From the NCBI GenBank assembly GCA_020851635.1, contig JADZCJ010000063.1:1-64000 (forward strand): 64,000 nucleotides of DNA. Reading direction: 5' to 3'. Position numbers and translations under genes: made by a program. The DNA comes from Anaerolineae bacterium (GTDB lineage: Bacteria > Chloroflexota > Anaerolineae > UBA4142 > SHND01). Shown in pieces: positions 29,849 to 42,102 of this stretch (position 1 is the first letter of the stretch; each line of letters starts with the position of its first letter). A model generated the notes under the pieces. That model was given only the letters and a program-made list of their open reading frames with translations, was not told the DNA's origin and ran no database searches.

Positions 29849-31255
29849 TCAAATCGGGTCCGCGATCAAGTCGTATTCACTCGCTGATGTGACCCTGACC
29901 TTGACCAGTTTCCCGATGGCAAGCTCGTTTTGCACGATCACGATGCCGTCCACTTCGGGCGCATCGCGATAACTCCGTCCGATGCTCACGCAATTACCAC
30001 ATTCCAGCGCGGGATCGCGCATGGCGGCGTTGCCTTCGATCGTGCCCACGCCCTCGATCAGCACCTCGAGCTCGCTTCCCACGAACGCGCGGTTCTTGGC
30101 AAGCGAGATCGCCTGCTGTGTCAGCATGGCATCGTGTCGGCGGCGCGCCTTGACTTGGCGCGAGACCTGATGTTCCATTGCTCCTGCGGGTGTCCCGTCT
30201 TCCCGCGAGAATTCGAAAATCCCCACGCGGTCGAACTGCTCCTCTTCGATAAAATCGAGCAGCCCCTCAAATTCTTGTTCCGTCTCGCCCGGAAAACCCA
30301 CGATAAAGGTGGTCCGTATTGCAAGGTCGGGCATCGCCGTCCGCAAGTCGTCCAACATGCGTTTTGTCGCAACGGGGTTGGGGCGCTTCATGCGGTGCAA
30401 GACGCGACCATCCCCATGTTGAAGCGGGATGTCGAGGTAATGCACAATCTGTGGATAGGCAGCCATCACCCGGACCAATCGCGGCGTCACATGACCGGGA
30501 TAGGCATACATCAAGCGCAGCCAGTTCAGCCCTTGCACCTCGTTGCACATGCGCTCCATCAATGTCGCCAGCACGTCACGCTGTCCCCAGTCCCAGCCAT
30601 ACGCGGTCGTGTCCTGCGCCACCAGAACGATCTCTTGAACGCCTTGTGCGACCAGGTCGCGCGCTTCGGCAATGACGTCATCCATCGGTTTGCTGCGGTG
30701 TCCGCCCTTGATGGCAGGAATGATACAAAAGGCGCAGGGGCGATCACACCCGTCTGCGATTTTCAAAAACGCGCTGGGTCCATGCGCGTGTCTGGGCATA
30801 TAGTCCGTCACGGACCGCGCGGGCAATTGCGAGCGCGGCAAATTGATATATGCCTCTTCGAACCACGTCTCGCCGTCCGCCTTGCCGTTCGCCGTCTGTT
30901 CGTGGGCGCGCAGATACTCGATAAAACGCGGCATGGCGAGCCAGCGGCCCGCATCAATCACCCCGTCCACGCTCGGCACTTGATGTTTCACATCCTGGCC
31001 ATAGCGTGAAACCAGACAACCGGCCGCGATCAACAATTGTCCGTCGTGCTTGTTTTGACCCAGCGCGCGCATCGCTTCGAGCGATTCCTGGCGGGATGCC
31101 TGCAAAAAGCCGCACGTATTGACAATTATGACATCCGCATCTTCGGGTGACGCGGCGCTTTCAAACCCTGCGCGCTCTAGAATTGCCTCGATGCCCTCCG
31201 AATCGGCAGTATTCTTGGCGCATCCCAATGTCTGAATAAAAAAGAGATTTGACAT
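29849..31255 (-). CDS. rimO: ribosomal protein uS12 methylthiotransferase
   Basis: 468 residues. The N-terminal UPF0004 domain carries the auxiliary cluster ligands Cys12 (LGCAKN), Cys48 (VNTCGF) and Cys80. The radical SAM cluster is C170-x3-C174-x2-C177 in DGCDRPCAFC. A C-terminal TRAM domain (about 395-465) binds RNA or protein. The start MSNLFFIQTLGCAKNTADSEGI is the RimO rather than MiaB pattern. It adds a methylthio group to an Asp of S12. Single gene bounded by a strong terminator. Confidence 0.93.
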   Translation of the reverse strand: MSNLFFIQTLGCAKNTADSEGIEAILERAGFESAASPEDADVIIVNTCGFLQASRQESLEAMRALGQNKHDGQLLIAAGCLVSRYGQDVKHQVPSVDGVIDAGRWLAMPRFIEYLRAHEQTANGKADGETWFEEAYINLPRSQLPARSVTDYMPRHAHGPSAFLKIADGCDRPCAFCIIPAIKGGHRSKPMDDVIAEARDLVAQGVQEIVLVAQDTTAYGWDWGQRDVLATLMERMCNEVQGLNWLRLMYAYPGHVTPRLVRVMAAYPQIVHYLDIPLQHGDGRVLHRMKRPNPVATKRMLDDLRTAMPDLAIRTTFIVGFPGETEQEFEGLLDFIEEEQFDRVGIFEFSREDGTPAGAMEHQVSRQVKARRRHDAMLTQQAISLAKNRAFVGSELEVLIEGVGTIEGNAAMRDPALECGNCVSIGRSYRDAPEVDGIVIVQNELAIGKLVKVRVTSASEYDLIADPI

Positions 31256-31289: not shown

Positions 31290-32921
31290 TCACGGCGCGG
31301 GCGTGCTCGACCGAGTCGGTGTGCGGGTGACAGTTCGAATCGGTGTTGCTATCTGCGTACGAGTTACGGTCGCATTTTGTCCGGCGCTCGGCGAGGGGGG
31401 AGGCGCCTTTGTAATCGTCGCCTCTGCCGTCGCCGCCGCCCGCGCACTTGTCTGGCTCGGCGTCGCGGTGTGCGTCGGTGTCCGGGTCGAACTTGGCAGG
31501 ACGGTTGGCGTTCGCGTCCGTGTTTGGGTCGCCGTGCGCGTCGCGGTCCGGGTCGCGCTCGCCGTCGGACTTGGAGAACTCGTGCTGGTCGAGCTCGGCG
31601 TCCTTGTCAGAGTGGCAGTGCGTGAGGCGGTCGCGCTTGGCGTGGTCGTGCGCGTTGCGGTTGGCGTGCGCGTATCCGTTGCCGTCGCGGTCAAAGTCCG
31701 CGTGGGCGTACTGGTCGGCGCGAGGGTCAGCGTTGGCGGGACAGTTGGCTCTACCGGAACAGGGAATGGTGTCGGCGGCACAATGACGGGCGTGCCGAGC
31801 GGACTCATAAACCACGCCCGGAACAGATCAAAACGCTCTTGTTGATTCCGCGGCAAAATGCGAGTCCCTTGAAAAAACACCCGTCCGTTTTCGATATTTT
31901 TGATTTCGATAAACATTCGCGCCCGCGCAATAAAAGTGCGTGACTCATTGGTGAGTGTTCCGTTAAAAGCTGTATCGCCATCCACCACCACCCACGCGCC
32001 CATTTCGCCGTTCGCTTGCAACTCTAGAATCATTTGCGCGTCTGCGGGCACATCAAACGTTGGCGTGCCGGTGGGGAGTGTGCCTGTTGCGCTTTCCGTT
32101 GCCAGGATGGTCGGGGTCTCTGCTTGCGCGGTCCCGGTAATGACCGACGTGATCAGGGTTGGCGCGACGGCGGTTTGGGGCAGGGTCGGGATGCCGGTCG
32201 GCGTGCTGCCGCGCGGCACGGTTGCCGTTGGAATGCGGGTCGGCTGTTCGGTCGGCGCTGTGGCGAACGGAATTGTGAAACCCTGAAATGACCTGAATCC
32301 CGCCGAGACCATGATAAACAACGCCACGCCAATCGAGATGATCGCCACTGCTTCGGGTATGCGTGTGCTTCCGATCCGCCGCGCCAAGGTGGGCGGCTCT
32401 TGTGGCAAATCGAGTGGCGCAGTTGGCTCGGGTTCCTCGACCTCGAGTGTGGGCGCAACCTGATAAATGGTCTCTGGTGCGGGAGGCAGCGCGGCAGGTC
32501 CACCCACATCCGCGTCGCCTGTCATCTTGGGCGCCGTTGGAATCTGAAACGGCGGAAACGGGAGCGACTCTTGAGGTTGTTCAGGCGGCGTCGCCGGAGA
32601 AGGTTGTTGTGGTGGCGTTATCGCCGTCGAGGGCGGCGCAGAGGCGCTTGGTTCGGGTTCGGGCGGAGGGGTGCGCGCGATCGCAGGTCTGTGACCCGTC
32701 TCATAGTCATACTCGTCGAGAACAGAATCCGCATCGAGATGCAAATACAACGCATAATTCCGCAGCAGCCCTCTTAGAAAGGGTCGCGGCGGTACTCCGG
32801 TGAAATCACCATCCTCCAGCGCTTCGAGGACTGCCTGCCGGATGCGCGTTTCGAGTGCGGCCTGATTCAAACTGATACGACGCGCTTCTCGGGCGCGGCG
32901 CAGTGTCTCGCCAAGAGCCAT
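31290..32921 (-). CDS. RodZ-like membrane protein with Thr/Pro-rich extracellular tail
   Basis: 543 residues from the ATG at 32921. The N-terminal HTH_25 domain (about 1-66, ALGETLRRAREARRISLNQA, then RPFLRGLLRNYALYL) is that of RodZ, which links MreB to the rod-shape machinery. A Pro-rich linker follows, then one transmembrane helix (about 192-210, VAIISIGVALFIMVSAGF) and a DUF4115-type RodZ domain (about 280-375, MILELQANGEMGAWVVVDGD). The last 150 residues are a Thr/Ser/Pro/Arg/Ala repeat (TPTRT, TATAT and TRTPT units), probably extended and possibly glycosylated. Typical RodZ lacks such a tail. It diverges from the GAF kinase, with its promoter 7 nt before the ATG. Confidence 0.85.
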   Translation of the reverse strand: MALGETLRRAREARRISLNQAALETRIRQAVLEALEDGDFTGVPPRPFLRGLLRNYALYLHLDADSVLDEYDYETGHRPAIARTPPPEPEPSASAPPSTAITPPQQPSPATPPEQPQESLPFPPFQIPTAPKMTGDADVGGPAALPPAPETIYQVAPTLEVEEPEPTAPLDLPQEPPTLARRIGSTRIPEAVAIISIGVALFIMVSAGFRSFQGFTIPFATAPTEQPTRIPTATVPRGSTPTGIPTLPQTAVAPTLITSVITGTAQAETPTILATESATGTLPTGTPTFDVPADAQMILELQANGEMGAWVVVDGDTAFNGTLTNESRTFIARARMFIEIKNIENGRVFFQGTRILPRNQQERFDLFRAWFMSPLGTPVIVPPTPFPVPVEPTVPPTLTLAPTSTPTRTLTATATDTRTPTATRTTTPSATASRTATLTRTPSSTSTSSPSPTASATRTATRTATQTRTRTPTVLPSSTRTPTHTATPSQTSARAAATAEATITKAPPPSPSAGQNATVTRTQIATPIRTVTRTPTRSSTPAP

Positions 32922-32928
32922 CTTGGAG

Positions 32929-32956
32929 AGTGTACGCTGAAAAAAGAAATAGTCAA
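32929..32956 (-). promoter_or_regulatory. promoter of the RodZ-like gene, candidate leaderless
   Basis: On the minus strand, -35 TTGACT (plus 32951-32956), 16 bp and -10 TACACT (plus 32929-32934), 7 nt before the ATG. Confidence 0.65.
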
Positions 32957-32977
32957 TTATCCATGACAATATTCATA

Positions 32978-33115: not shown

Positions 33116-36100
33116 ATGAACGCAAAATTCTTTGCCCTGCTCGAGAAACGCAGCGCCAATCTGCGTTTGCGCGGCATCGCGCTGGCGCTGGTCATTTGCA
33201 GTCTTTTGATCGCGCGCTGGTTTATCTATTTTCAAGCCGAGTTTATTTTTGCGATTGCTGTTCTCTATATCATCGAACTGACGGTTGTCTGGCTTTTGCT
33301 CCGCCGCCTCGAAAAAATCCCCGACCAACCGCATACGACGCTCCTCCTGCAGCTCACGGGTCAACTCCAGGTGCTTGCCGAACTCCTCCTTCTCACCTGG
33401 GCGGTCTATTACACGGGCGGCATCATTAGCCCACTTTTGCCCCTCTACTTTATCTATATTTTTGCCGATGGTCTTTCCTCTTATACCCGCGCGCTGGTGT
33501 TTCACGGAGCGGTTGCATCTCTCCTGCTGCTTGTCGTCGCCCTCGGCACGTTTGCCGGGTGGCTGAATCGCTACAACATCGGACTGTTTCCCGAAAACGA
33601 CTTGTGGCGTAATGCCGGTTTTGTCGGCGGCTCGCTCATTGTCTTTGGCGCCATGATGATCGTCACGCTGGTCATTTCAATCACGCTAAGCCGCCGCACC
33701 TGCCGGCGCGAGATCGAGTTGGGCGAATCCGCCGGGCAGCTCTCGGTCAGGGTTCAGCAGGTCAGCAACATGCGCGATATCGGGCAGCGGCTGGCTTCTT
33801 TGCTGGGACTTGATCAGGTCCTCGACGCGGTCGGAGCCAGCGCACTCAAGATTGTCAACGCGACCGATGCGCACATTTATCCATACGACGAGGACACGGC
33901 GCAATTCCTGCCCGGCGCCGGTGTGTGGTCTGACGGTCATCGCGGCACGGTGGTCAATACCCCGCGCCCCGATGGACTTTCGGCGCGCGTCGTCAAAACC
34001 AAAAGACCGATTATCATTGACGATGCCGAGAATGACCCGCTTTTTCAGTCGCTTCAGGCGAAAACGTGGGGTCTTGCCTCCATCGCCAGTTTCCCGCTCA
34101 TCAAAGCGGCTCGCATCGTTGGCGTTTTGAATGTGGCTTTTCTCGAACCTCACCATTTTACGCCCCAGGAACAAGAAGCGCTGCTCGTGTTGGCGGACCA
34201 GGCGGCGATTGCGCTGGACAATGCGCGCCTCTATACACAGGTCCAGCGCAAAATTCAAGAATTGTCTGCGCTCAATGCCGTCAGTCAGTCCGCTGCGCAT
34301 CTGACCGATATCAACTCGATGCTCAACGATGCCCTCGGCGCTATCCTCTCTGCCATCAGCGCCGACGCTGTGCTCGCCGGCATTTTGAACGAGCGCGCCC
34401 AAGTCCTTGACCTGGCAGCGCAACGCGGACTGACCGGCGCCGCGCTCGACGATCTCGTGCGTCAGCCCCTGCATCCCGGCGAGGGCTTTGGCGGCATAGT
34501 TATACAATCGGGCAAACCTTATTTTGCGGAGGAAATTTCCAAAGACCCGCAGCGGTTTGGCGAAAACGCCACTGCCGCTTTTACTTCAATTTATACCGTG
34601 CCCCTGCGCGCGTACGATCACATGATCGGCGTGCTGCAGTTGTTGTGGCGCGAACAGCACCACTTGACGGCGGCAGAAGTCAGTCTGTGCGGCGCGATTG
34701 CCCCACAGCTCGCGGCAGCTATTTACAACTCGACGCTGTTTAACGAGACGAAACGCCGCGCCGACGAATTGACCACCCTGCGCGCCATCGGTCTCGCGAC
34801 GACCTCGACGCTCAACCTGCGCGAACAGCTGCGGCTCTTGTACGAAAATGTCAATCAACTGCTGCGCGCAGACACGTTTTTTGTGGGAGTGTATGACGAG
34901 ACGCGAAATGAATTACGCATCGAATACATCGTCGAAGAGGGATGGTTTTTGCGCCCGCAGCAGATGCCGCTGGCGCAGGCGGGACTTTCGGGTTGGGTGA
35001 TCAAAAACCAGAAATCGCTTCTTGTCGCCGACGTGCAAAACAGCGAGACGCTGCCCACCCAGCCCGTCCATCTCACCCGTCCCGCGCGCAGTTGGCTCGG
35101 CGTCCCATTGATGCTCAAAGAACGCGCGGTGGGTCTGATTTCGGCGCAAAGTTTTCAACCCAACGCGTTTACGCCCCAGGACGAACGTTTCCTCATTGCC
35201 GCCGCCCAGCACGTGGCGCTCGCGCTCGATAACGCCCGGCTGTTTGCCGAATCGGAACGCCGCGCGCGCGAGCTCACCCTGTTGAATGAAATCAGCCGCG
35301 CGATCAGCGCGTCGCTGGACCTCGACGAGGTCATGCAGCGCGCCGCGCGGGCGCTTGCCGACCAGCTCGGCTATCGCTATGTCGGTATCTACGAGCTTGA
35401 CGGCGACCAACTGGTATGCAAAGCAAGCATCGCCGACGTCGAATCCAACGAACCCTGGGATACGTCGCGCGGGGTGATTGGGCGGGTTGCTCGCACAGGT
35501 CGCGCCGCTCTCATCACCAATGTTCGTGCCGACCCCGATTTTGTGAGCGTGCATGAGGATGTCGTTTCAGAGATCTGCGTCCCCATCGTGCGCGAAGGGC
35601 GCGTGCTGGGGTTGGTCAATGTCGAAGAGACGCGCATCGGCGCGCTAAAACAAGACGATCTCGCCCTCCTGTCGGTGCTGAGCGAACAACTCGCCATCGC
35701 CGCGTCCAATGCTTCGCTCTATCACGAGGCGTTGGGGCGCGAACGCTTTGCCACGCGGCTCGGTCAGTTGGGCATGACCATGACCTCGACGTTGGATGTC
35801 GTGCAGTTGATTGAAATCCTCTGCCGCGAGGCGCTTGCCCTCTTTGGTTCGGATACGGCGGTCATTTATCTGCGCGAGACTGTGCGCGATGTTGTGCGCC
35901 CCGAATCTCGCGCCCTGGCGAGTGTCAGCGAAATCTCTTCGGGTCCCGAGCGCGCCCATCTGGTGTGCCGCGCGGCAGCGGGAATTGGGCGTGAGGAGCT
36001 GCTTGGCACAGCCGTCGAAATTGACCAGCTCGGTAATCTCCTCGCGCGGACGCTCCGTCTCGGACGCGGCGCGATTGTGCATGACGCCCATTCTTCCACT

Positions 36101-38575
36101 CAGCTCTCGCCCCAGCTGCGCGCCATCGTCCAACCCGAGGCGGCGCTTGCCGTTCCCATTATGAAAGAGCACGATGTGATTGGCGTCCTCATGCTGTGCG
36201 ACCGCCAAGACCCCATTCACTTTGGCGAACCCGAACTGGCGCGCGCCCAGATCGTCGCCTCGCAGGCAGGGCTTGCCATTTCCAACGCGCGTCTCCTGGC
36301 AGAAGCGCAGCGCCGCGCCAAAGAACAAAGCAGTCTCTACGAGATCGGTCTCGCCATCAGTTCCACGCTCGATCTTGGAGAGCAACTGCGGATCATTTAC
36401 GATCAGGTCGCCAAACATTTTCAGCTCAGCGGTTTTGACATTGCCCTGCGCGGCGAAAACAACGAACTCGAGTTTGCCCTGTATATCGAGCAGGGCAAGC
36501 CGCTTTCGACCTTTAGCAAACCAATGGCAGAAGCGGGTTTTGCCGGATGGGTGGTCAGCAGCCGCCGCACGCTCGTGATTGACGATATCGAACGACAAGC
36601 CGAAACTCTGCCCGTCAAACCGGGCGAGCACGGGACTTTTAACGACACGGCGTCCTATATCGGGATACCGCTGATGACCAAGTCCGAAGCGATGGGGGTC
36701 ATGGCGCTCCAACGCTCACCCGTCGAGCCCTTTACGGCGGACGAACAGCGTTTCTTGTTTGCTTTGGCGCAGCAGGTTGCATTTGCGGTGGACAATGCGC
36801 GCCTCCATCAACAATCTCAACATCGCGCCGCTCAACAGTCCCTGCTGTATCGCGCCAGTCGCCGGATTGCAGGCGCGTTGAATCTCGATACCCTGCTCAC
36901 GGGCATCGTGGATGCGCTCAGCAAGGACTTTGGTTATCCCGGCGTCCTTGTCATGCTGGTGGATAGGGAGGCGAATGTTCTGCAGCCGGCGGCGGTTTCT
37001 GCCGACGTTCGTTCGATCATCACTCAATCTTATCGCCAACCGGTCGGTGTCGGGCTGATGGGCTTGGCGGCGCAAACAGGAGAGACACAGCTCTCGAATG
37101 ATACGCGCGACGATCCGCGCTTTCTTGCCGTCAAGAATTGGCGTCCCATGTCCGAAGTGGCAATGGCGATTCGCTCCGGTGATCAGGTCATTGGCGTCTT
37201 GAATGTCGAAAGCGCGGAGGTACATGCCTTTACGGATGAAGATGTGCGCATGTTTGAAGCGATCGCCGATCAGCTGGCGGTGGCAATCGAGAATGCAACC
37301 CTGTTTACGCGCGCTCAGGAACGCCTGGCGCGCCTCAACGCGCTGCAAAATATCCAGATCGCCATTCTGTCAACCATGAGTCTCGTTGACCGCCTCGATT
37401 TGATCCTGGAACATGCCGTCACTCAGATGCGCGCCCATATGGGCGTGATCTTGATGCGCGACAGCCAGACGCGCGAGCTATATGGCTTGCGTCAGCGCGG
37501 GTCGCGTGATCTGGTGTCTTTTCGCGAATTACGCATCAAGCCGGGGCAGGGCGCAGGCGGCTGGATCATGGAGCACGGCGAACCACTTTATATCGCCGAT
37601 GTTAGCCAGGATGAGCGTTGGTCCCGAACGACCGCTTCGGTGAATGAGGGCGTTGTCTCGTATCTGGGCGTGCCCCTCCGCGTCGAAGAACGCTCCATCG
37701 GCGTCATTGATGTGTCCACCCGCACCCCGCGTCTTTTTACGGACGAAGAAATCAATTTTTTCACCACTCTCGCCAGCCACGCGGCGGTGGCAATTGAAAA
37801 TGCCCGGCTTTACGAGCAGACCCGCGCCCAACTTGAAAAACTGCGCGACACTCAGGACCGTCTTGTCGAAAGCGAACGCCGCGCCGCCATCGGCGAATTG
37901 GTTGCCGGACTTGCCCACGAAATCAATAACCCACTCACAGCGATTGTGGGGCATTCGCAGCTGCTGATGGAAACCATACCGGACAGCCCCTCCACCGATT
38001 CGTGGCGCAGTGAATTGGACACCATCGGCGTCGCGGCACAGCGCATTGCGCGCATCGTCCAGGAATTTATCAAACTCTCTCAGGTCGAAGGCGGTCACAC
38101 CGAAACGATCAACCTCGCCGACGTCATTCACCACGCGGTCGCCCGGTTCGAAGCGCGTGAGGATTCGCAGGATATCGCCATTTCAGAAATCCTGCCGACT
38201 GAACCGCTGTGGGTCCGCGCCAACGCCCAGCTGATCGAGCAGGTGCTTGGCAGTCTGCTCACGAATGCGCTCGAAGCCATGCCGCACGGCGGCGCGATTG
38301 ATGTCACGGCAGGTTTTGCCGAATCGGGTCAGATTTTCTGTGCGGTACGCGACAGCGGCTATGGCGTGCCCGCCGGCGATGTGAAACGCGTTTTCGAGCC
38401 GGGCTATACCACCAAGGTCGAGAGCGGAGTTATGCGCGGCGTTGGCTTGGGGCTTTATACCGCTCAACGAATCGTGGTTAGCCACGGCGGCACGATTGAC
38501 CTTGACAGCCGGGAAGGAAAATACACCATCGTTACTTTTACCCTGCCGCGCGCCAAATTGGGCGGGGGAGACTGA
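33116..38575 (+). CDS. membrane histidine kinase with eight GAF domains
   Basis: 1819 residues from the ATG at 33116 (an in-frame ATG at 33056 is possible; neither has a Shine-Dalgarno). About six transmembrane helices occupy the first 215 residues. Eight GAF domains follow, each ending in the recurrent helix [AV]A[LIV]xNA[RST]L[YFL] before a short coiled linker. HisKA has His1601 in AGLAHEINNPLTAIVGHSQLL. The ATPase has N-box LLTNALEAM, G1 VRDSGYGVPAG and G2 GVGLGLYTAQRI, all canonical. GAF domains bind small ligands or chromophores; no bilin-type Cys pattern is obvious. The next gene, 4 nt on, is a response regulator fused to a kinase-like module and is probably its partner. Confidence 0.9.
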   Translation: MNAKFFALLEKRSANLRLRGIALALVICSLLIARWFIYFQAEFIFAIAVLYIIELTVVWLLLRRLEKIPDQPHTTLLLQLTGQLQVLAELLLLTWAVYYTGGIISPLLPLYFIYIFADGLSSYTRALVFHGAVASLLLLVVALGTFAGWLNRYNIGLFPENDLWRNAGFVGGSLIVFGAMMIVTLVISITLSRRTCRREIELGESAGQLSVRVQQVSNMRDIGQRLASLLGLDQVLDAVGASALKIVNATDAHIYPYDEDTAQFLPGAGVWSDGHRGTVVNTPRPDGLSARVVKTKRPIIIDDAENDPLFQSLQAKTWGLASIASFPLIKAARIVGVLNVAFLEPHHFTPQEQEALLVLADQAAIALDNARLYTQVQRKIQELSALNAVSQSAAHLTDINSMLNDALGAILSAISADAVLAGILNERAQVLDLAAQRGLTGAALDDLVRQPLHPGEGFGGIVIQSGKPYFAEEISKDPQRFGENATAAFTSIYTVPLRAYDHMIGVLQLLWREQHHLTAAEVSLCGAIAPQLAAAIYNSTLFNETKRRADELTTLRAIGLATTSTLNLREQLRLLYENVNQLLRADTFFVGVYDETRNELRIEYIVEEGWFLRPQQMPLAQAGLSGWVIKNQKSLLVADVQNSETLPTQPVHLTRPARSWLGVPLMLKERAVGLISAQSFQPNAFTPQDERFLIAAAQHVALALDNARLFAESERRARELTLLNEISRAISASLDLDEVMQRAARALADQLGYRYVGIYELDGDQLVCKASIADVESNEPWDTSRGVIGRVARTGRAALITNVRADPDFVSVHEDVVSEICVPIVREGRVLGLVNVEETRIGALKQDDLALLSVLSEQLAIAASNASLYHEALGRERFATRLGQLGMTMTSTLDVVQLIEILCREALALFGSDTAVIYLRETVRDVVRPESRALASVSEISSGPERAHLVCRAAAGIGREELLGTAVEIDQLGNLLARTLRLGRGAIVHDAHSSTQLSPQLRAIVQPEAALAVPIMKEHDVIGVLMLCDRQDPIHFGEPELARAQIVASQAGLAISNARLLAEAQRRAKEQSSLYEIGLAISSTLDLGEQLRIIYDQVAKHFQLSGFDIALRGENNELEFALYIEQGKPLSTFSKPMAEAGFAGWVVSSRRTLVIDDIERQAETLPVKPGEHGTFNDTASYIGIPLMTKSEAMGVMALQRSPVEPFTADEQRFLFALAQQVAFAVDNARLHQQSQHRAAQQSLLYRASRRIAGALNLDTLLTGIVDALSKDFGYPGVLVMLVDREANVLQPAAVSADVRSIITQSYRQPVGVGLMGLAAQTGETQLSNDTRDDPRFLAVKNWRPMSEVAMAIRSGDQVIGVLNVESAEVHAFTDEDVRMFEAIADQLAVAIENATLFTRAQERLARLNALQNIQIAILSTMSLVDRLDLILEHAVTQMRAHMGVILMRDSQTRELYGLRQRGSRDLVSFRELRIKPGQGAGGWIMEHGEPLYIADVSQDERWSRTTASVNEGVVSYLGVPLRVEERSIGVIDVSTRTPRLFTDEEINFFTTLASHAAVAIENARLYEQTRAQLEKLRDTQDRLVESERRAAIGELVAGLAHEINNPLTAIVGHSQLLMETIPDSPSTDSWRSELDTIGVAAQRIARIVQEFIKLSQVEGGHTETINLADVIHHAVARFEAREDSQDIAISEILPTEPLWVRANAQLIEQVLGSLLTNALEAMPHGGAIDVTAGFAESGQIFCAVRDSGYGVPAGDVKRVFEPGYTTKVESGVMRGVGLGLYTAQRIVVSHGGTIDLDSREGKYTIVTFTLPRAKLGGGD

Positions 38576-38579
38576 CCCC

Positions 38580-40199
38580 ATGTCAAATGAACGGCTGCTG
38601 CTGGTTGACGACGACCCCGCGATTCTCGACATCTGTCGCCGCGTTCTGGAAACGGAGGGCTTTACGGTTGTCCAAGCCAAGCGCGGCGAAGATGCGCTCG
38701 CGAAACTCCAAGCCGAGCCGTTTGATCTGCTGCTCACCGATATCCGTCTGCCGGGACTTGATGGGCTGGAAATGGTGCGTCGTCTGCGCGAGAGCGCGCC
38801 GGAACTACCTGTCGTGACCATGACCGGCTATAGCAATATGGAGATGGCAATTCAAGCCCTCTCGTTCGGAGTGGACGGATTTCTGGTCAAACCGTTCACT
38901 CTGGACACTCTGCGTCTGACGATCACACGCGCGCTCGAAAAACGGCGGATTCGGCGCGAACTGTTGCGTCTGAGCACGCTGGAACCGCTATTGAAAACCG
39001 CGCGAGAGCTGGCGTCCGCGCGGACGCGCGACGGGATCTATGAATGCGTCTCTGCCGCCGTGCGTCCTTTGCTCGAGACCGAACAGATCGCGTTTTTTGA
39101 GATTGGCAGCGACAATCTCACGCTGACCGTTGCGTCGGTGAACGGCGAGCAGTTCGCTTTGCTTTGCAATCAGAATTTCCCTCTCTCGCAGATCGTCGAG
39201 GGGCAGGAACTGTTTGGCGCCGCTGTGACGGTCTGGAACGAACGCGATACGCCGCGCCTCCCATTCGACTTGCCCGGCGTGACCTGGCTGGTCGCCGCCC
39301 CGTTCGTCACACGAGACAAGCCCATCGGGTTTTTGCTGGCGGCGGTCCCTTTCTCTCCCTCTGCCGGCGATAGCGAAGCAATGCGCCTGATCATGGCGCA
39401 AGCTTCCGCCGCATTGGAAAATGTAGACCTGCTGAACGAAACCGGTCGCGCGCTTGTCGCGGCGCGGCAAGCCGAACGCGTCAAGGGTGAATTGATCAAT
39501 ATCGCCGCACAGGAACTGAACGCTCCGCTCACAACGCTCGTCGCAAGCGCCGAACTCGTGCGCGGTCGGGTCACGGGCGATCTCTACGACTCGATTGCCG
39601 ATATTTTGGAGCAAGCCGCTCGCATACAGCACCTAACTGACGAGATGCGTATGCTCCAATCGGTTGAATCAGGACGCCTCGAACTGCATCTCGAACGCTG
39701 CGCGCTCGATCAGGTGGTTCGCCGGGTGGTTGGCTCTTGCCAACCTCTGGTGCTTGAGCGCGAACAAACGATTGATGTGGAAATTGAGGACAGCGCGGGC
39801 GCCGTCACTGCCGATCGCGCCATGCTGCGAGCCATGCTGGGCAGTCTTGTCTCGAACGCCATAAAATTCTCGCCGCGCCACGCACGCTTGCAAATTGCGG
39901 CGCGTGGAGACGCGGCGAACGTCACCTTTCAGGTTCGGGACCTGGGCAAGAGCTTGCCCGAGCAGGGCGGGCACGTCACCGATGCGTTCCATCAAGCCAA
40001 CTCTGCGCTGACGCGTGACCCGGGCGGTTTGGGGACCGGCTTGACGCTTGTGCGTGACATGGTCGCGGCTCATGGCGGCAAAATCTGGTTCGAGTCGGCG
40101 CAGCCCGGCGGCACGTCTTTTAATATTTCCCTCCCCCGCGAACCGCGACACGAACCACACCCCCGGCTTGTTCGGGATCCTGCTGCGCAGAGTGTCTAG
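38580..40199 (+). CDS. response regulator-GAF-degenerate histidine kinase fusion
   Basis: 539 residues from the ATG at 38580. The receiver domain (1-120) is intact: acidic VDDDP, Asp54 in LLTDIRLPG, Thr in VTMTGYS and Lys in LVKPF. A GAF-like middle (about 140-285) is followed by a HisKA-like helix whose H-box reads AAQELNAPLT. The phospho-His is Gln311 (codon CAG at 39510). In the ATPase domain the G1 box reads VRDLGKSLPEQ instead of DxGxG, while G2 (GLGTGLTLVRDM) is kept. It probably receives phosphate from the upstream kinase but cannot autophosphorylate in the usual way, so a scaffold or phosphatase role is likely. Confidence 0.87.
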   Translation: MSNERLLLVDDDPAILDICRRVLETEGFTVVQAKRGEDALAKLQAEPFDLLLTDIRLPGLDGLEMVRRLRESAPELPVVTMTGYSNMEMAIQALSFGVDGFLVKPFTLDTLRLTITRALEKRRIRRELLRLSTLEPLLKTARELASARTRDGIYECVSAAVRPLLETEQIAFFEIGSDNLTLTVASVNGEQFALLCNQNFPLSQIVEGQELFGAAVTVWNERDTPRLPFDLPGVTWLVAAPFVTRDKPIGFLLAAVPFSPSAGDSEAMRLIMAQASAALENVDLLNETGRALVAARQAERVKGELINIAAQELNAPLTTLVASAELVRGRVTGDLYDSIADILEQAARIQHLTDEMRMLQSVESGRLELHLERCALDQVVRRVVGSCQPLVLEREQTIDVEIEDSAGAVTADRAMLRAMLGSLVSNAIKFSPRHARLQIAARGDAANVTFQVRDLGKSLPEQGGHVTDAFHQANSALTRDPGGLGTGLTLVRDMVAAHGGKIWFESAQPGGTSFNISLPREPRHEPHPRLVRDPAAQSV

Positions 40200-40260: not shown

Positions 40261-40289
40261 TTGAATAACCTGTCGCTCTATGCTATACT
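40261..40289 (+). promoter_or_regulatory. promoter of the Ig-like lipoprotein
   Basis: -35 TTGAAT (40261-40266), 17 bp, -10 TATACT (40284-40289), then a leader of about 25 nt without a clear Shine-Dalgarno. Confidence 0.6.
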
Positions 40290-40320
40290 TGATTATCTTG
40301 AACCGGGGCAAACAGGGTCA

Positions 40321-42102
40321 ATGGTGTTCAGAACACTAATTTTTGCGCTTGTGATCGCCGGATTTGGGCTTGTCATAATGGGTTGCAGCGCGTCTGTAGC
40401 TACCCAATCAAAACCCACCGTTATTATTGCATCCCCTCCCAGCGGCAGCGTCTATACCGTGGGCGAAAAGGTCGTCATCCAGTCCACAGCGACGGACCCG
40501 TCCGGTGTGACCAGAGTCACGTTGCTCGTGAACGGCGCAATCATAAGCGATGACCCCAGCCCCGTTCCACAGGGACAGGCGCAATTTTCTTTGATCCAAA
40601 CCTGGACCGCCGAGAGTGCAGGCGAGTATGTCCTCACTGTGCGCGCAACCAACGCTCAAGGCGCCACTTCTGACAGCGGCATTATCATCAATGTCCGCGA
40701 TCAAGGCGGCGGTCCCGAACCTCCCACTGTCGTAGCCATCGCAACTGCCGTGCCGATTGCCACGGCAACGCCTGTCGCCACCGGCATGGCTCAGACGGAT
40801 GTGCCGCCTGTCACGGTCATTGTGACCGCCACGCCCGCAGCGTCCCAGCCCACCGCGCCGCCGAGCTGTGTGCTAAACTCGCAGTTTGTCGCCGATGTGA
40901 CCATTCCGGATGGCATGGTCTTTACGCCCAACGCCGTGTTTGCCAAAACCTGGCGTGTGCGTAACAACGGAACGTGCACTTGGGAGAATTTCGGTCTTGT
41001 GTTTGTCAGCGGCACCCAGATGGCGGCAAGCTCTATCTTTCCCGTGCCGACCACACCACCCGGCGCGACGGCTGATCTCGTCGTGCCCATGACCGCCCCC
41101 GCAAGCTATGGGAACTATGCCGGGACATGGCGTTTGCGGAGCGCCGCCGGACAACTCTTTGGCACAAACCTGACCGTCGTCATCAGCGTCCCTTCACCTG
41201 CCACCCCCGTGCCGCCCACCAATACCCCGCCGCCGACGGCGGCAGGATGCGCCGGTAAACCTGATGATTTTACTTTTACGGTGAGCGATAGTGACATTAC
41301 GGCAGGACAATCGGTCACACTCGGCTGGGGACCCGTCACCAACGCCAGCGAGGTGCGTTTGGATGGTGGAGAATTTAGCAACGAAGGTGTCGAGACTCCC
41401 GGCAATCGTGTTGTTTCACCCGGCGCGACCACTCATTACGAACTCACCGCCAAATGCAACAACAGCGGACAGGTGCGCGACAAGACCGTCACCGTCAATG
41501 TGGGCGCTCCGGTCGGCAATTTCGCGGGCAACTGGGTTATGAATTTCGGCAATATGAATCTCACCCAGGATGGAAATGCGGTCACCGGGACTTATAATAA
41601 CCTTTTTGGCGGTACCAGCGGGTCAATCGCCGGGTCCGTTGACGGAAATGAATTTGTCGGAACGTGGAGTATTGTAGGGAATTCGGGTGATGTAGAGCTG
41701 ACCTTGTCCAACAACGGACAGCGCTTTACCGGCAGTTGGGGTGGAGGGGCAAACAGTTGGTGCGGCGCGCGCCCGGGTCAAAATTTCCCGAACGGTTGTA
41801 GTTTTGCCGGCGAATGGCAAGGCAAGAATTCTGTCTTTGCCGACTGCCCGATGACCCTCACAAGGCGCGACAATATTATTACGGGCAACTATTGCAACGG
41901 CACCATTCAAGGGAGCGTTGATTATCTTGGCTCCAGTGCCGTCGCAACGGGGAACTGGGATACGGGCGGTTCAATCGGCGAGTTCAAGTTCTATCTCGAC
42001 GGCTATAATGCGTACAAGTTCAACGGGAATTTTTCGGGCATTTACGAGTGGTGCGGATGGCGCAGCGGGCAGTCGGCTCCTGTGCCATGTCACAGACCAT
42101 AA
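40321..42102 (+). CDS. lipoprotein with Ig-like and NBR1-type domains
   Basis: 593 residues from the ATG at 40321. The lipoprotein signal is VFRTLIFALVIAGFGLVIMGC, with lipid-bearing Cys at about 22. Next come a bacterial Ig-like domain (about 35-125, ASPPSGSVYTVGEKVVIQST), a Thr/Ala/Pro linker, an NBR1-type Ig-like domain (about 185-290, FAKTWRVRNNGTCTWENFGL), a further Ig-like domain (about 318-395) and a Cys-containing beta-rich repeat region (about 400-590) with alternating GSW/GNW and SGSIAGSV motifs. It is anchored on the outer face and function is unknown; adhesion or carbohydrate binding is inferred. It ends 21 nt before the Lys-rich gene, probably in the same transcript. Confidence 0.82.
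   Translation: MVFRTLIFALVIAGFGLVIMGCSASVATQSKPTVIIASPPSGSVYTVGEKVVIQSTATDPSGVTRVTLLVNGAIISDDPSPVPQGQAQFSLIQTWTAESAGEYVLTVRATNAQGATSDSGIIINVRDQGGGPEPPTVVAIATAVPIATATPVATGMAQTDVPPVTVIVTATPAASQPTAPPSCVLNSQFVADVTIPDGMVFTPNAVFAKTWRVRNNGTCTWENFGLVFVSGTQMAASSIFPVPTTPPGATADLVVPMTAPASYGNYAGTWRLRSAAGQLFGTNLTVVISVPSPATPVPPTNTPPPTAAGCAGKPDDFTFTVSDSDITAGQSVTLGWGPVTNASEVRLDGGEFSNEGVETPGNRVVSPGATTHYELTAKCNNSGQVRDKTVTVNVGAPVGNFAGNWVMNFGNMNLTQDGNAVTGTYNNLFGGTSGSIAGSVDGNEFVGTWSIVGNSGDVELTLSNNGQRFTGSWGGGANSWCGARPGQNFPNGCSFAGEWQGKNSVFADCPMTLTRRDNIITGNYCNGTIQGSVDYLGSSAVATGNWDTGGSIGEFKFYLDGYNAYKFNGNFSGIYEWCGWRSGQSAPVPCHRP

Follow-up and report, generated by a model that had tools for sequence, protein, structure and literature searches.

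What can a response regulator do when its output module is a histidine kinase core that no longer has the acceptor histidine? The question is raised by two adjacent genes in a stretch of 64,000 nucleotides from an Anaerolineae genome (contig JADZCJ010000063.1; the whole stretch is referred to below as the window). A membrane histidine kinase of 1819 residues with eight GAF domains (33116-38575, plus strand) is followed, after a gap of 4 bases, by a regulator of 539 residues (38580-40199, plus strand) in which a receiver and a GAF-like domain precede a kinase module with Gln at the phospho-His position. HisKA kinases are phosphorylated on that His. A preliminary description of the locus had proposed that phosphorylation of the receiver controls a non-catalytic ATP-binding module, constituting an output type of its own. 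Our analysis indicates that the regulator is very probably an inactivated Rec-controlled histidine kinase (Rec-HK), and that it looks like an isolated dead-kinase variant of a regulator type already described, not a novel sort of signalling output.

The anatomy given in the preliminary description was borne out. In the open reading frame of the regulator, Pfam matches a receiver (38598-38924; Response_reg, E 9e-32), a HisKA domain (the DHp region, degenerate; 39483-39674; E 1e-7) and a HATPase_c domain (the CA region; 39813-40142; E 6e-18, 65.9 bits), and the codon CAG at 39510-39512 specifies Gln311. The GAF-like domain (39057-39422) is weakly matched here as GAF_3 (E 0.004, below the Pfam cut-off), although GAF_3 was matched in the regulators of all five genus members scanned (best E 2.5e-6); no PAS domain was matched by Pfam, so that the receiver and GAF_3 are what stands ahead of the DHp. 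With a threshold of E 1e-40, a family search returned 77 matches, from 68 of the 396 genomes in the collection, which place the regulator in a Rec-GAF-histidine-kinase family spread across the class. Sixty-three sequences were aligned (the window regulator and 62 other full-length or near-full-length homologues), 14 of the 77 matches being left out (12 without the receiver half, and G061 and G107, which are cut short). At position 311, His is found in all 61 of the other aligned homologues that extend over it (in G002 the site is cut off by a contig edge), as well as in the partial homologue G061 (locus L035), read apart from the alignment. The genus comprises six genomes in the collection, namely the window genome and five congeners; the four congeners readable at this position have CAT or CAC. 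Since His is found in every homologue read, including these four, Gln311 is a change in a single species. The preliminary description had itself named His in the orthologues as the result that would speak against its proposal, and that is what the congeners have. What stands of the distinct output is the absence of the acceptor His from this one protein; as a distinct conserved type it falls, though it may hold as a state of this single species, and Gln311 was rejected as the mark of a conserved family.

Other motif positions are altered as well. The codon GCT at 39522-39524 places Ala315 at the H+4 position, where Thr or Asn is needed for the phosphatase activity of CrdS and three other HisKA kinases (PMC3510030). 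As the acceptor His has become Gln and the H+4 Thr has become Ala, the sequence predicts the loss of both kinase and phosphatase activities in the window regulator. The G1 box (39939-39953), previously described as broken, is so only in part: it reads DLGKS, with Asp454 and the first Gly (456) retained and the second Gly (458) replaced by Ser. Of the G2 box, described earlier as intact, the glycines are kept (G483, G485 and G487), and N426 is kept too.

These changes are unevenly distributed along the protein. Sixty-five positions were defined as class-conserved (the same residue in 22 or more of 24 other homologues), and the window regulator differs at 11 of them. All 19 in the receiver are unchanged, and one of the 10 in the linker and GAF is altered; in the DHp, five of nine have changed (F305L, H311Q, R314N, T315A and L349I), and in the CA five of 27 (G458S, F467T, Y471H, L486T and V504F). 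The receiver, with D10, D11, D54, T82 and K104 present, is thus as intact as had been claimed. In the kinase module as a whole, 10 of 36 positions have changed in the window regulator, compared with 1, 0, 1 and 3 in the congeners G003, G005, G001 and G004, and the difference between receiver and kinase module is significant (Fisher's exact P = 0.01). When positions invariant in four congeners are considered instead, the window sequence differs at 13 of 24 in the DHp, 12 of 62 in the CA and 11 of 81 in the receiver, while in the DHp of the neighbouring kinase it differs at 2 of 52. When each congener is given the role of the outlier and the results are pooled, the values are 11 of 55 for the DHp (P = 0.004 against the window) and 15 of 215 for the CA (P = 0.007). 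The regulator DHp is 32-37% identical between window and congeners and 44-70% among congeners, and its terminal branch measures 1.02 in the window species and 0.20-0.49 in congeners; the DHp of the neighbouring kinase is 77-90% identical to its congener counterparts. Damage in the window species is concentrated in the kinase module. A mirror case exists in locus L032 (G076), in which the receiver is degenerate, with changes at 15 of its 24 class-conserved positions, and the kinase module keeps its His.

Several observations weigh against the regulator being an inactivated Rec-HK with a surviving role. For the kinase and the nearby RimO-like gene, too, the window branch is about twice as long as the branches leading to G003 and G005, so that part of the acceleration is general. 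Ala at H+4 also occurs in 3 other homologues that keep His, and Gly458 is absent from 7 of the 60 homologues in which the His is intact; for this reason Ala315 and Ser458 alone do not prove inactivity, and the G1 change was rejected as a decisive sign. An open frame, moreover, is no proof of function for the kinase module itself. Altered G1 boxes are found elsewhere in the class, in Rec-GAF-HK homologues of family f45 (loci L166, L167, L168, L169, L177 and L179) that keep the acceptor His but have Asn in place of the G1 Asp and another residue for Gly458 (NGS, NGT, NGP, NGI). These homologues are scattered on the tree among intact relatives, possibly reflecting recurrent loss of the ATP site in the family.

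The upstream partner has the motifs of its class. Its open reading frame begins with hydrophobic stretches within residues ~14-190 (with a sub-threshold match to 6TM_PilS, E 0.009), a membrane region missing from the preliminary description, and continues with the eight GAF stretches matched by Pfam (residues 212-1580; 33749-37855), a HisKA domain (37892-38095; E 4e-14) with the canonical His1601 in AHEINNPL, just as described, and a HATPase_c domain (residues 1704-1813; 38225-38554; E 1e-20). Having a HisKA domain with acceptor His1601 and a HATPase_c domain, the first gene encodes a HisKA-class sensor kinase. Its stop codon ends at 38575 and the ATG of the regulator lies at 38580. The pairing of the two genes, also part of the preliminary description, is conserved: they are adjacent in all six genus members and hence in 5/5 congeners, whose kinases (65-73% identical to that of the window) all have eight GAF domains and whose regulators are 45-55% identical. 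Outside the genus, the homologue was located in 22 of 23 loci, the one in L056 being missed, apparently because it was masked by a longer overlapping open reading frame, and several contigs end near the gene. Within this survey a multi-GAF kinase stands immediately upstream only in L057, and because this is 1 of 22 loci, the pairing with an eight-GAF kinase looks like a genus-level feature. A kinase gene lies downstream in L054 and a receiver gene adjoins the homologue in L045, L046, L050 and L052; judging from this gene order, Rec-HKs of some other families may have a receiver partner of their own.

How does the regulator compare with systems already described? A receiver with a histidine kinase as its output is already known. 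Rec-HKs are a described class whose prototype, LvrB of Leptospira, autophosphorylates on H161 and hands the phosphate to LvrC, a Rec-Bergerat anti-sigma factor (PMC13269768). LvrB has an N-terminal receiver that drives a DHp-CA core and a separate upstream kinase as the source of phosphate, an arrangement probably shared by the family of the window regulator, and its structure (PDB 8vc9) is among the Foldseek matches to the regulator model. Homologues outside the window species keep the His, as LvrB does; in the window regulator, in contrast, it is missing, and a GAF domain separates the receiver from the DHp. Because the acceptor His is absent, we class it as an inactivated Rec-HK derivative and not as an active Rec-HK. 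ExsG likewise has an N-terminal receiver ahead of its kinase core, and phosphorylation of the receiver inhibits the core (PMC3899027), but it is an active, hexameric, HWE-type kinase, whereas the window regulator is of the HisKA type, with a GAF domain and without the acceptor His. DivL of Caulobacter has a HisKA-type module that also has no acceptor His; kinase and phosphatase activities are lost and the protein acts by binding (PMC4211667). Its structure (PDB 4q20) is among the solved matches to the window kinase module (E 9e-20 by sequence). However, DivL has Tyr at the acceptor site as well as PAS domains, and the phosphorylated regulator that it senses is a separate protein, while the window regulator has its receiver in cis together with a GAF domain. 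ChrS of Corynebacterium glutamicum is another histidine kinase turned pseudokinase in a single lineage, with a functional gain and formation of heterodimers; it is a sensor kinase whose CA domain acquired a frameshift during laboratory evolution, and the abstract mentions no receiver fusion (PMC9491836). Among open-licence papers, the search for receiver-fused pseudokinases led to DivL, ChrS, ExsG and LvrB. The unusual part is that a receiver and an apparently dead core are joined in a single chain, in a single species.

Structural comparison gives a further parallel. The dual-sensor Rec-GAF histidine kinase of PDB 6ob8, 6oap and 6oaq matches residues 1-291 of the regulator model in its Rec-helix-GAF arrangement, with a VIA Z of 21.7 for 6ob8/6oap (287 aligned, root-mean-square deviation 8.6); by its entry title it is a green-light photoreceptor, and the window regulator shows no indication of a chromophore site. 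The VIA match list consists mostly of receiver domains, so the absence of other folds from it is uninformative. The model has long helices at 108-146 and 262-328, which may connect the receiver to the next domain and onward to the DHp, and is of middling confidence (mean pLDDT 75.5, pTM 0.41, five-sequence alignment); in the ATP lid (457-487) pLDDT is below 50, and no inference on the nucleotide pocket is drawn from it.

On balance, and by a modest preference over the alternatives taken together, we consider the regulator to be the likely cognate partner of the eight-GAF kinase: a Rec-HK descendant whose core has been inactivated in this species, whose receiver would still be phosphorylated and whose output, if any, would work by contact. 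The ancestor and the other species would have an ordinary kinase core, phosphorylated on His, that is controlled through phosphorylation of the receiver. In the window species that core would have been inactivated by Gln311, Ala315, the change of one G1 Gly to Ser and several changes in the ATP lid. With its D54 pocket intact, the receiver would still accept phosphate from the neighbouring kinase, and any onward signal would pass through shape or contact, by dimer or partner binding as in DivL, and not through phosphotransfer. That the inactivated Rec-HK keeps a non-enzymatic output is held with moderate confidence. A more specific version, in which phosphorylation of the receiver in cis reshapes the dead DHp-CA dimer, so that the protein would be a receiver-switched pseudokinase signalling by binding, like a DivL with its own receiver, is offered tentatively and falls short of an even chance.

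The kinase module could instead simply be decaying, the output having been lost here and the receiver surviving for now by chance or as a sink for phosphate from the kinase next door. We regard this as rather unlikely, although the excess of change is clearest in the DHp, at more than half of the congener-invariant positions as against the 11 of 81 in the receiver, and NG86 nonsynonymous divergence (dN) from G003 is the highest of the four domains there (0.64, with 0.20 in the receiver). Synonymous sites are near saturation (NG86 dS 1.4-2.4, one pair having failed), and no dN/dS claim is made. Decay sits poorly with a frame that is open to its end without a stop. When the kinase-module codons of the congener were randomly mutated to half the observed divergence, 0.6% of 2000 runs remained stop-free; as so few did, retention of the frame has likely been selected, at least until recently, the simulation being silent on which part of the protein was under selection. 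The CA, moreover, retains N426, D454, G456 and the G2 glycines and scores 65.9 bits with Pfam, and it is 63% identical to the nearest congener, near the 56-68% found between congeners. This better preservation of the CA relative to the DHp could also be taken to mean that the Bergerat (ATP-binding) domain is itself the output, for instance through partner binding in the manner of LvrC, the described target of LvrB, the acceptor His being dispensable. Such a role seems improbable, the G1 and lid positions having changed too and LvrC being described as a Rec-Bergerat protein without a kinase DHp (PMC13269768).

It is very improbable that the module retains kinase activity through a different acceptor, or that Gln311 is an assembly or sequencing error. 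A single base separates CAT or CAC from CAG, and the genome assembly is in 144 contigs, but ten class-conserved positions of the module have changed together, beyond what one base error could produce, and we know of no residue besides His that is recognised as a HisKA acceptor. Compensation by a full-length paralogue was also rejected, since among 65 matches in the same genome only the gene itself spans residues 1-539 and no second full-length Rec-GAF-HK was found.

The surroundings of the pair are partly conserved. The closest relatives of the window in the genome collection are Chloroflexota/Anaerolineae metagenome assemblies (L058-L061). Two genes divergent from the kinase are kept upstream of the pair in 5/5 congeners: one at 31290-32969 (minus strand), encoding an HTH_25 protein with a Thr/Pro-rich tail that we take to be RodZ-like, and one at 29849-31255 (minus strand), presumably RimO-like. 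Directly downstream, at 40261-42102 (plus strand), lies a gene whose product combines a bacterial Ig domain with a next-to-BRCA1 Ig-like domain (E 6e-25); it follows the pair in 3/5 congeners (L038, L039 and L040), another gene takes its place in L041, and the contig ends in L042.

Elsewhere in the genome there is a second kinase module without the acceptor His. Twenty HisKA matches score above the Pfam cut-off, and 18 of them have His. The exceptions are the window regulator and a HAMP-HisKA-HATPase homologue outside the window (C94:6848-7993, minus strand; L219:6848-7993, also L152). In the latter, Asn occupies the acceptor position (IANELR), the N-box Asn is replaced by Asp or Glu, and the G1 box is missing (AYRAGV/AYRAAV). 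ANELR and AYRAAV recur in all five congener orthologues, which are 70-75% identical, so that Asn at the phospho-His position and the missing G1 box are found in 6/6 genus members; in homologues outside the genus His is present in 18/18 loci read. A conserved small protein of 102-144 residues without a Pfam match precedes the gene in 5/6 loci, and no receiver gene was found nearby with the receiver model in the six genus loci. From these alignments the protein is evidently a genus-wide pseudo-histidine kinase under constraint, and it is a better pseudokinase case than the window regulator.

The lesson of the window regulator is that a substituted acceptor His should be compared with the orthologues before it is taken as the sign of a new output type. 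Here an apparently dead, natural copy of a Rec-HK stands beside intact copies in close relatives with the same gene order. This makes for a clean comparison, which addresses whether a histidine kinase core can act as the non-enzymatic output of a receiver.

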